This document shows, piece by piece, positions 14,787-48,066 of a stretch of DNA of 64,000 nucleotides. The stretch lies in contig NZ_QGMZ01000014.1 in assembly GCF_003173335.1 (NCBI RefSeq), positions 1 through 64,000 of the forward strand, written 5' to 3'. This stretch comes from Methanospirillum stamsii (lineage in GTDB: Archaea > Halobacteriota > Methanomicrobia > Methanomicrobiales > Methanospirillaceae). How positions within the stretch are numbered: the stretch's first letter is position 1; each line of letters starts with the position of its first letter. The notes under the pieces are model-generated. The model was not told where the DNA came from. It did not search any database and saw only the letters and a program-made list of their open reading frames with translations. The translations under genes were made by a program, and so were the position numbers.

Positions 14787-15800
14787 ATGGATAAAAACCA
14801 GAAAAAATGGATATATGTCTCTCTTGCTTTCAGCATGGTGATTCTTGTTTTTATCCTTCTTTCAACCTTTAACGAGGAAACGCTGCAATATTTGTTTCAT
14901 ATCAATATCTGGTTCCTGCTTCTTGCAATAAGTCTCCGTTTTGTTTCTTTTTCTCTTTGGGCTGCCAGGATTAAGGTTATGGCCGCATCACTCGGGTATC
15001 AGGTGAAGTACAGCCATTGTTATAACATGGTCGTTGCAAATCTCCTTATCGGCGCTATTACTCCCGGACAGGCCGGAGGTGAACCGGTCCGGATACATGA
15101 GCTCTATAAAGCTGACATGTCTCTTGGAGATGCAACCGCTGTGGTAATCATGGAACGGGTACTCGATGCCGTGATACTTGTGGCATTGACGGTTTTCAGT
15201 CTCATTATCATGGGAAAGGTAATCTGGGATATGGGAGAAGGGATTGTAATAGTTATCTTCTTTTCACTTGCGGTTCTTATCTTTTTCATCGGGTTACTTA
15301 TTTATGCAACACGAAATCCGGAATCTGCTAAAGATAAGGTGATGCGTTTTCTTCACTGGATTGAGCTGAAGATGAAAAATCCGGGTATCCATAAAATTAT
15401 TGCCAGCACCGATGTTGAGTTTGATAATTTCTGTTCAGGCATCTCGGCATTTACCAGTCATGGTAAGAAAGGAATTGCACAGGGAACGGTTTTTTCAGTC
15501 CTTTTCTGGTTTTCTGAATTTATTGTGGCATCGGTAATTCTGATGGGGCTTGGCCTTCCGCCTTCTATTTCAGAATCAATGCTCAGTCAGATTATTATCG
15601 CTCTTATCAGTATGATTCCCCTGACTCCGGGAGCATCAGGGATAGCAGAACTTTCAGCAACGTCGTTATATGCTTTGTTTGTTCCTACGGCAATCCTGGG
15701 AGTGTTTATCATTCTCTGGAGACTGATAATGTTTTACCTGAATATCGTATTCGGGGTAATTGCAACCGTTCTGATATTCAAGCGGGAAATATCTACCTGA
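14787..15800 (+). CDS. UPF0104 / lysylphosphatidylglycerol-synthase-like membrane protein
   Basis: A 337-residue polytopic protein of about eight helices, matching the UPF0104 (AglD/LPG synthase membrane domain) family. Landmarks are NMVVANLLIGAITPGQAGGE with PVRIHELYKADMSLGDATAV and VVIMERVLDAVILVALTVFS. The conserved PGQAGGEP and ERxxDA motifs are intact. Family members are linked to lipid or glycolipid flipping or dolichol-phosphate sugar handling. The exact substrate is unknown. It ends the plus-strand housekeeping run. Confidence 0.85.
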   Translation: MDKNQKKWIYVSLAFSMVILVFILLSTFNEETLQYLFHINIWFLLLAISLRFVSFSLWAARIKVMAASLGYQVKYSHCYNMVVANLLIGAITPGQAGGEPVRIHELYKADMSLGDATAVVIMERVLDAVILVALTVFSLIIMGKVIWDMGEGIVIVIFFSLAVLIFFIGLLIYATRNPESAKDKVMRFLHWIELKMKNPGIHKIIASTDVEFDNFCSGISAFTSHGKKGIAQGTVFSVLFWFSEFIVASVILMGLGLPPSISESMLSQIIIALISMIPLTPGASGIAELSATSLYALFVPTAILGVFIILWRLIMFYLNIVFGVIATVLIFKREIST

Positions 15801-45438: not shown

Positions 45439-47070
45439 ATGGAGAGAAAAATAGTAACATTAATGTTGATCTTGGTCTTTGTGGGTATTACCGCTACTCC
45501 GGTTATGGGTGAATGGTCATTACCTGGAGGATACTGGCTGAAATACCTTTCAACAGAAGAATGGGAGGTTTTTAATCTCACGGCAATGTTTGAAACCATC
45601 GATTCTCTGGATGAGAAAACAAAAAACGGTATTCCACTGACTCCAGGAATTACTGGTAAAGGATATATTTTTTACGGAACCGGCTATGATGACGGTTGGG
45701 TGGATATCATTTCACCAGGAGTCTATCATCTGACTGATGATCTTCACGTGTTCACATCGGATTATGGAATCCGAATATCTGCTCCCCGTGATATCCTGCT
45801 TAATGGGAATACCTATGGAATTATCAATGAACGAGCGAATAGATCCGGAACAGTAGGAATTGATATTACAAAAAATGCTACCGGGGCGACTGTTCTTGGC
45901 TTTGGCAGATCTGATGTCGGGATAACTGGTTTTGAAGACGGTATTTTATCCAAAGCATCTCCTGTTATCATTAGCAGAATGCAACTATCCAGAAATGATG
46001 TTGGTATCAATTCATACGGGATTTCCAGCATCATTACCGGAAATACTATCCGGAAAAATAGTATCGGACTGAACCTCTCTGGTCATGTAGGATTGATATT
46101 TGGAAATTCTCTCGATGAAAATACTGATGGAATCCTAACAAATGGAAGTACATACATCATTGCCAGAAACCATGTTGAAAACAGTGGGAAAGGTATAGAG
46201 ACAACTGGAAGTTCGATTCTCATCGCTGATAATTCTCTGGTAGGAGATAAAAACGGTATCATATCATCAGGAAGTTCAATTGATAATCAGGCGAACCTTA
46301 TTGAGTATACTGAATATGGAATTAATGCTACAGGTAGTTCAATAAACATAGCCGGAAATAGCATTTCAATGAGTGAAAATGGGATTTTTTCATCCGGTAG
46401 TTCAGCTAACATTGTTGAAAATGTCCTTAGCATGAATAAAGCAGGGATTATATCACGTGGAGCGTCTACGAATATCCAGATGAACAACCTCTCTTCTAAC
46501 GATGTTGGAATCATCTCAACCGGGCATTATGCGGCAATCATGAACAATCTTGCTCATCAGAATGGTATTGCAATACAAGCTACCAATTATTCGGTAGATA
46601 CCTTGCAAAACTGGAACTATATTTCTGAAAGCAGAGATATTGATGTTGCAATTATTGGAGATGTTAAGCCTGAGGATGAATCACTTTCATTCCTTTCTTC
46701 ACTTGTAATATCTGATATTAGTATGCCTGATGGAGCCTTACCCGGAGAAAACACCACCTTGAACATATCTTTTACAGATAAGAGCGATCCCCCTCTATCG
46801 GAAGGAACGAAGATAACTCTCTCTCCAGGAAGTACTATTGCAAAGAATATGGGACTCATCGAAGGAACGCTTAAAAATGGGACTGTCCAAATGAATCCGG
46901 TAATTACCATACCTGCCCAAAATGGAACCTATGAATATTCCTTTATCCCTGAACGGGTAAAAATAAAATCCGGAAATCCGCTCCTCGTACATGCAGGACC
47001 GTTCATCCTGTTTACGATTACTGTTGGAGATGATGTTACCCTGAACCTTGTCCGGAGAAAACATCTGTAA
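45439..47070 (+). CDS. Second secreted beta-helix surface protein
   Basis: A 543-residue exported protein with a signal peptide (IVTLMLILVFVGITATPVMG). A right-handed beta-helix of about 15 turns carries repeats such as GISSIITGNTIRKNSIGLNL and SSINIAGNSISMSENGIFSS. The C-terminal domain resembles that of the larger surface protein at 16.9-19.6 kb (GALPGENTTLNISFTDKSDP versus ATPGSSANLFITLENNGQIS), so the two are related. It has no Thr/Pro stalk. It is divergent from the secreted-protein/polyferredoxin unit. Confidence 0.75.
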   Translation: MERKIVTLMLILVFVGITATPVMGEWSLPGGYWLKYLSTEEWEVFNLTAMFETIDSLDEKTKNGIPLTPGITGKGYIFYGTGYDDGWVDIISPGVYHLTDDLHVFTSDYGIRISAPRDILLNGNTYGIINERANRSGTVGIDITKNATGATVLGFGRSDVGITGFEDGILSKASPVIISRMQLSRNDVGINSYGISSIITGNTIRKNSIGLNLSGHVGLIFGNSLDENTDGILTNGSTYIIARNHVENSGKGIETTGSSILIADNSLVGDKNGIISSGSSIDNQANLIEYTEYGINATGSSINIAGNSISMSENGIFSSGSSANIVENVLSMNKAGIISRGASTNIQMNNLSSNDVGIISTGHYAAIMNNLAHQNGIAIQATNYSVDTLQNWNYISESRDIDVAIIGDVKPEDESLSFLSSLVISDISMPDGALPGENTTLNISFTDKSDPPLSEGTKITLSPGSTIAKNMGLIEGTLKNGTVQMNPVITIPAQNGTYEYSFIPERVKIKSGNPLLVHAGPFILFTITVGDDVTLNLVRRKHL

Positions 47071-47982
47071 TGGGACAATTTTTGTCTCATTTTCTGGACG
47101 CAGAGGGAGAAAATTTTAAAATTTTTTTGACACCTTACCAATAACAATTCCTGGATTGCTCAATCATCCAGAATATTTCTTCCAGGTGACGATGGGAAAA
47201 GATTTGTTTTGGAATCAGGTTATCCGGGTAATACAAAGGAGGGAGGAAGGATCTTTATCTGTAGTAACTATTATTTGTTGGAATGGTTTTCTTGAATATT
47301 CATACAGTTATTGGCCCTGCCTATTGAAACAAATCACACCCACCTATTGGAATTTACCTGGACCATTCCAGCAATTAGTGTAGTCATCCATATTAATCTG
47401 ATAAGCGGAATTACACTGATGTCGGCGGAAGGCGGCGGAAAGGTTCCGCTATCTAAATCTCCGCCCGTTTTAGAATTGGCCCTAGGGGGTGGCTCTGTTT
47501 GTTCATTTTTTCTGAGTTGGCGGAACGGCGGAAGGTTCCAGGTACACAGTCATATGAGATCCCTGGTTCGTGTGTGCTCTGTAAATCCCAACTCTTCCGC
47601 CTACTATAATAAAAAATTAATTTATTATAATATTTAGTAGAATAAGCCTTATTTCGGTCTTCGTTACCCGGCGGAAAGTTCCGCCAGCTTTCCGCCGCCT
47701 TCCGCCAATCCGCCGGGATCATCAAACTGATCATCTCTTTGGTTTCGTCCATATTCGGGAACAACCGGAAACAACATTCCGGAATAACCGTGTTCTGAAT
47801 CAATCGGTCTTTGATAATTTTTGGATAGACAAATAGATATTAAAAACAAGTAGTCGCTTGCGAAGTAATTTTCAGTATTGAAAAGGACATTATTGGAAAT
47901 CTGGATATATTATCCATTTCTTAATGAGTCAGTGTGTAAAAAGTAACATCGTAACAACAAAACATTCAGAAAAAAGATTTAG
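47071..47982. other. Gene-free stretch holding the GGCGGAA element
   Basis: About 910 bases with no credible gene. Its central 290 bases hold nine copies of GGCGGAA or its complement (see the repeat entry). The surrounding sequence is AT-rich, with an AAAATTTTAAAATTTT-like run near 47109. No transposase remnant or RNA gene is recognised apart from the tRNA that follows. Confidence 0.5.
47424..47706. repeat. GGCGGAA inverted-repeat cluster
   Basis: GGCGGAAGGCGGCGGAAAG at 47424-47442 has its exact reverse complement at 47688-47706. Between them, GGCGGAA occurs also at 47519, 47527 and 47670, and TTCCGCC at 47595 and 47679; two more TTCCGCC are in the right arm. Short hairpins form, for example GGCGGAA-AG-TTCCGCC at 47670-47685. 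The centre has an AT-rich dyad at 47601-47640 (CTACTA ... TAGTAG). The base composition differs sharply from the flanks. Confidence 0.85.
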
Positions 47983-48066
47983 CGCCGAAAGGGAGATTTG
48001 AACTCCCGAGGTGTTACCACCAGTGGTTTTCAAGACCACCGCCTTCCCGGACTAGACTATCTCGGC
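47983..48066 (-). tRNA. tRNA-Ser with anticodon UGA
   Basis: Read on the minus strand, the acceptor GCCGAGA pairs with TTTCGGC, followed by discriminator G. The anticodon arm is GTGGT-CTTGAAA-ACCAC with anticodon TGA, which reads UCA serine codons. A long variable arm (GGTGGTAACACC) and the T arm GGGAG-TTCAAAT-CTCCC follow, as expected for a class II serine tRNA. The 3' CCA is not encoded. About 84 bases; no intron is seen. Confidence 0.93.

Follow-up and report, generated by a model that had tools for sequence, protein, structure and literature searches.

A decayed iteron array from a primase-MCM-like initiator gene in Methanospirillum stamsii, most likely a fossil replication origin

Introduction

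Among the integrated elements of the Methanomicrobia, the part of the literature account that deals with arCOG07809/Mpal_2033 describes an initiator that combines an AEP primase, a helicase-type ATPase, an HTH and a zinc finger and that is encoded beside a tyrosine integrase (PMC4158269). In the same part, the elements carrying it are proposed to be integrated satellite viruses (Makarova et al., 2014; PMC4158269). Mobile elements that combine a primase with an MCM protein have been described (PMC5862659), and the origin of pRN1 is poorly conserved in sequence and conserved in architecture (PMC4234260).

The locus compared here with these systems is a cluster of short repeats in a contig of Methanospirillum stamsii (NZ_QGMZ01000014.1, positions 1 to 64,000; this whole stretch of 64 kb is referred to as the window). 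It is a real, non-random element, the fossil of an in-gene iteron array that is most likely a replication origin. The copy in the window is a relic, and its interest lies in the family pattern that is reached through it.

Results

Nine exact copies of GGCGGAA, five on the plus and four on the minus strand, lie within 283 bases (47424–47706), just as the first-pass annotation of this DNA had counted them. The window holds 12 exact copies in all, so that nine of them fall into a stretch for which shuffling predicts about 0.03 (6.1 window-wide). When one mismatch is allowed, sites at 47404, 47444, 47459 and 47708 are added, and the resulting 13 sites form a roughly dyad-symmetric iteron array on both strands at approximately 47404–47714, so that the limits drawn at first enclosed real sites and were too narrow. 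Along the plus strand, a degenerate site (AGCGGAA, 47404–47410, plus strand) is followed by the left arm of a perfect 19-bp inverted repeat (47424–47442, plus strand; two exact sites, 10 bp apart), by two degenerate sites on the minus strand (47444–47450, an inverted site reading TTCCGCT on the plus strand, and 47459–47465, reading CTCCGCC), by a pair of exact plus-strand sites 8 bp apart (47519 and 47527, together 47519–47533) and by a single exact inverted site (47595–47601, minus strand). Directly adjoining is an AT-rich imperfect palindrome without strand assignment (47602–47637), which includes the AT-rich dyad of the first description (47605–47632), is a candidate DNA-unwinding element and has an equivalent AT core in relatives. 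Beyond it lie an exact plus-strand site (47670–47676), inverted relative to the right arm, and four minus-strand sites (47679, 47690, 47700 and 47708, together 47679–47714) with spacings of 11, 10 and 8, the last of them with one mismatch. The right arm of the inverted repeat (47688–47706, minus strand) again holds two exact sites 10 bp apart, and the complementarity of the two 19-nt arms, noted earlier, is indeed 100%. The G+C content of the array (43–52%) departs from that of the near flanks (31–38%), in agreement with the unusual base composition reported at first. Between the window sites, positions 47541–47561 (GGTACACAGTCATATGAGATC) match in 17 of 21 positions a motif that L072, L073 and L020, three non-coding arrays from other species, carry at a similar place; it is not general among arrays and may be another conserved component of the element.

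A BLAST search with the stretch against its own genome returned three relatives (C78:171243-171560, C2:5664-5872 and C2:109181-109330) with 71–79% DNA identity. The element therefore does not exist as a single copy only, though the 19-mer arm itself was found nowhere else, even with two mismatches. Both C2 relatives sit within intact genes of 1,043 and 1,049 codons, and the C78 relative is a truncated copy that shares 73% DNA identity with the window over 362 columns (47378 to 47724). A reverse search with the initiator of 1,043 amino acids aligned residues 824–881 with window positions 47680–47507 on the minus strand (52% amino acid identity, E 1.4e-10), and the protein match of 47734–47507 has an E value of 2e-13. 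The reading frame of the window fragment is broken and most of the initiator gene is gone. Judged by sequence comparison, the homology, the broken frame and the loss of the rest of the gene together show the window element to be a broken gene fragment, i.e., a frameshifted and truncated pseudogene piece (47378–47734, minus strand) in which only two parts of a primase/MCM-like initiator are retained, the linker and the edge, namely the start, of its zinc domain. The description of the stretch as gene-free accordingly holds for intact genes and fails for this minus-strand fragment. The C78 copy (L007, G000:C78 1197-3237) is a second wreck, in which a tRNA-Leu is followed by the first ~70 integrase codons and then by the initiator from about residue 411, interrupted by a stop; a single large deletion within the element appears to account for this arrangement.

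The relic lies ~250 bp from a gene for tRNA-Ser(TGA) (47982–48066, minus strand). Genus relatives retain this tRNA gene and its upstream genes, and since the conserved neighborhood ends at the 3' end of the tRNA, the relic resides in species-specific DNA beside it. In none of the 11 genus relatives searched was a match to the relic part found at this place beside tRNA-Ser. A long-kept locus was rejected on the grounds that the relic is absent at tRNA-Ser in relatives and that synteny ends at the tRNA. No integrase remnant or other element genes were found beside the relic. When the window was examined for an attachment-site repeat of tRNA-Ser, the sole candidate was a match of 17 out of 19 positions in opposite orientation (at 15037), which is not significant and was dismissed. 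The ~250 bases between relic and tRNA-Ser (47735–47981) and the ~300 bases on its left (47071–47377) have no match in the genus genomes and may likewise derive from the element that was lost. Immediately to the left, positions 45439–47070 encode an intact, secreted-looking protein of 543 amino acids with repeated parallel beta-helix-like motifs.

Of the 61 Methanomicrobiales genomes searched, some of them drafts, 44 contain homologues of the intact initiator, often in many copies; a single genome gave as many as 23 matches. The protein of ~1,050 amino acids comprises an AEP primase, an MCM-like AAA+ ATPase, a winged helix, a disordered linker and a zinc domain. Pfam and PDB sequence searches with it yielded nothing strong, and residues 404–808 folded as a single sequence reached a pLDDT of only 33. 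A fold model built from an alignment of 44 homologues has a mean pLDDT of 80 and is confident for most domains. The predicted order is primase-like domain, AAA+ domain, winged-helix-like domain (~698–801), disordered region (807–914) and C-terminal zinc domain, and the best PDB matches of the model are MCM helicases (E 5e-9). In the alignment of 44 sequences, the N-terminal primase-like domain carries invariant AEP-like acidic and zinc-like motifs. With AEP primase, ATPase, HTH and zinc domain predicted in one protein, the intact relatives match the arCOG07809/Mpal_2033 family in architecture. An integrase (PF00589) is encoded 2 kb upstream of one intact initiator gene of the same genome (L008), and the C78 copy adjoins tRNA-Leu and an integrase N-terminus. 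A free replicon was sought without an IMG/VR match and without a full-length match among plasmids or phages, and the elements are accordingly putative replicons.

In the intact genes, the DNA of the disordered linker has an AT-rich core that is surrounded by short repeats on either strand. Linker repeat scores of 85 homologues were compared with synonymous-codon draws, and z exceeded 5 in 44 and 3 in 55 of them, while control windows of the same genes were seldom above 4 and never above 6. Sites fall on both strands, as selection on DNA rather than on peptide predicts. The array-positive set was picked by a threshold, below which 30 of the 85 homologues have no significant linker array, some of these bearing an array downstream. 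Array presence varies with linker length, from two of 17 linkers shorter than 100 amino acids to 46 of 59 linkers of at least 125. About 15 long-linker homologues stay below the array threshold, several of them with none downstream either; L106, L107 (both G008), L057 (G000:C58) and L063 (G010) are full-length proteins with long linkers, no clear linker array and nothing iteron-like within ~3 kb downstream.

Most of the short-linker proteins form one clade (14 rows, support 100) that is nested beside relatives with in-gene arrays. Its members have an array of like geometry 0.4–2.5 kb past the stop codon, mostly between genes. In the external array of L072, the order of elements equals that on the plus strand of the window, i.e., sites, pair, single inverted site, AT core, next site and inverted partner; the distance from the pair to the single inverted site is 69 bp compared with 68 in the window, and that across the AT core to the next site 73 compared with 75. 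Close downstream of two initiator genes, L148 (G008:C1 3266500-3270000) and L153 (G059:C2 603000-608000), repeats with a period of 64–67 bp and a CRISPR-like look are present. Taken together, linker repetition beyond synonymous-codon draws and a short-linker clade with a mostly non-coding external array demonstrate, at the level of sequence, that the array is constrained as a DNA element.

The repeat word varies by lineage and includes GGCGGAA, TGCACAT, TTTTCTGC, TGCTGAAA, TCGCGGA and others. In total, at least a dozen recognition words are found across the family on nearly equal spacing, and close protein relatives can differ in word. Two intact genes with GGCGGAA arrays (L008 and L009) are found in the same genome as the window. 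Beyond overall relatedness, the correlation between site word and winged helix is weak (partial r ~0.2), and that with the zinc domain is about equal; the protein columns that correlate best with the word fall in the winged helix, the zinc domain and the linker slightly more often than elsewhere, and no residue code linking protein columns to site word was found. We lean toward the winged helix as the putative reader of the word, a reading favored by pairs that share a word and have divergent zinc domains (L029/L032 and L122/L031).

Spacing was analyzed for 32 non-redundant in-gene arrays together with the window and five external arrays. Same-strand spacings cluster at 8–11 bp (93 observed vs. 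15 expected), 18–22 bp (70 vs. 18) and 28–32 bp (46 vs. 18), and values between these classes are depleted. The sites are helically phased, as in iteron plasmids (PMC5043065). In the typical layout, four same-strand sites (spaced ~9, 10 and 11) and one inverted site are followed by single sites that enclose the AT core at a distance of ~75 bp from each other and by a mirror arm. Arrays with unlike words such as TGCACAT (L056) and CTATGCA (L071) have their sites at the same positions, and the window sites agree with the layout of intact L008 within ~3 bp, 12–13 sites having stayed in register despite the broken gene. Dyad pairing amounts to 12 of 12 sites in L056, 12 of 13 in L071, 10 of 12 in L008 and 10 of 13 in the window, values reached by none of 100 random layouts, and dyad symmetry is individually significant in only about one third of the arrays tested. 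These comparisons show that geometry is largely conserved while the recognition word differs by lineage. Short repeats phased with the helix beside an AT-rich stretch, a feature of iteron origins, are seen in the family arrays as well as in the window.

Discussion

We consider it probable that the window element represents a decayed copy of an iteron-type replication origin whose usual place is within its own initiator gene, in integrated plasmid- or satellite-like elements of the Methanomicrobiales. The suggestion of a protein-binding array or maintenance element in the first-pass annotation pointed in the right direction. In the proposed mechanism, the initiator would bind each site, probably via its winged helix, and two multimers would assemble on the opposed arms, whose sites are helically phased; the MCM-like ATPase would then open the AT-rich core, and the AEP domain would prime. 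The linker would be long and disordered because its DNA must hold the origin. In the window copy, loss of the gene has left an orphan set of sites beside tRNA-Ser.

Iterons can serve several roles, and the evidence presented here concerns a conserved DNA-binding layout, not activity. The array might thus bind the initiator or another protein of the element for autoregulation, partition or packaging instead of serving as the start of replication; a packaging site in particular would be needed by the satellite viruses proposed by Makarova et al. (PMC4158269, in the part on these elements). We nevertheless judge such a role rather unlikely, as the array lies in or near a primase-helicase gene and its AT-rich core between two opposed phased arms is origin-like; for autoregulation, a site at the promoter would be expected, and the array is found either within the gene, some 2.4 kb from its start, or downstream. 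A different question is whether the orphan copy persists because it serves as a decoy, titrating initiators that belong to related elements of the cell, as a means of incompatibility or defense. The two intact GGCGGAA-array genes in this genome would supply such initiators, 12–13 sites are still in register though the gene is broken, and replication of lambda is arrested by ectopic copies of lambda ori (PMC4488673). However, the lambda decoy sat on a multicopy plasmid, a recently broken gene would look alike, and as the locus is absent from all 11 genus relatives searched, no long-term retention is shown; we therefore hold the decoy reading to be improbable.

Two further explanations have very little to recommend them. 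The perfect 19-bp terminal inverted repeat and the four related loci in the genome might suggest a MITE or another non-autonomous transposable element with terminal inverted repeats, as had been proposed initially. Yet the relatives share no common boundaries, homology continues past the inverted repeats into coding sequence, neither a target duplication nor same-end copies at unrelated sites were found, the 19-mer arms are unique and each relative either lies within a replication gene or is what remains of one, so that we regard this explanation as highly improbable. The parallel proposal of a non-coding RNA is rejected, as the array has no Rfam match, tRNA-Ser being the only match in the window. 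It is just as hard to believe that the DNA repetition is a mere by-product of peptide repeats in a Gly/Ser/Pro-rich coding linker: the linker is indeed of low complexity and predicted to be disordered, and some of the proteins have repeated GGSG-like peptides, but synonymous-codon shuffles score far lower, sites lie on both strands, and the non-coding arrays outside the gene in the short-linker clade contradict it.

As a probable decayed origin, the window element leads to a predicted origin for a very common, uncharacterized family of archaeal integrated elements and would account for the long disordered linker of their initiators. The family offers a natural experiment on the joint change of specificity in initiator and sites and on how many related replicons can share one cell. 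It also illustrates how an odd repeat cluster in seemingly gene-free DNA may turn out to be the fossil of an origin. More tentatively, and with considerable doubt, we put forward that the arrays may represent an origin class not previously described, in which ~12 phased, dyad-symmetric sites lie in the disordered linker of a primase-MCM-like initiator, the geometry is frozen and the word replaced by lineage, many compatible replicons coexist per cell, two opposed multimers assemble and orphan copies act as incompatibility decoys. No earlier description of the array was found in the open-licence literature searched.

With regard to arCOG07809/Mpal_2033, no origin or repeat array is described in the part of the account that covers these elements (PMC4158269); the present analysis adds the array and shows that it lies in the linker, that its geometry is fixed and that in one clade it is placed outside the gene. 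That part assigns the helicase to superfamily I, whereas the fold model presented here matches MCM-type AAA+ proteins best. Other likenesses concern the arrangement. In phage lambda, the origin likewise consists of iterons and an adjacent AT-rich stretch within the initiator gene O (PMC5043065; PMC4488673); however, the initiator is unrelated and lacks primase and helicase, and four inverted-repeat iterons lie on one side of the AT stretch, whereas here two opposed arms are present with single sites between them. The plasmid pRN1 resembles the family in its prim-pol/helicase/winged-helix initiator and in an origin formed by an inverted-repeat region near the gene (PMC4234260), but this is a stem-loop of 100 nt downstream of the gene and not a phased iteron array within it. 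The short-linker clade is reminiscent of SaPI and SCCmec, integrated elements that encode an initiator helicase, have their iterons downstream of its gene and are proposed to use two hexamers (PMC7581432); these are bacterial and unrelated in sequence, their origin lies outside the gene and their primase is separately encoded. Lambda ori, pRN1 and SaPI/SCCmec are functional parallels, and not relatives, of the array described here.
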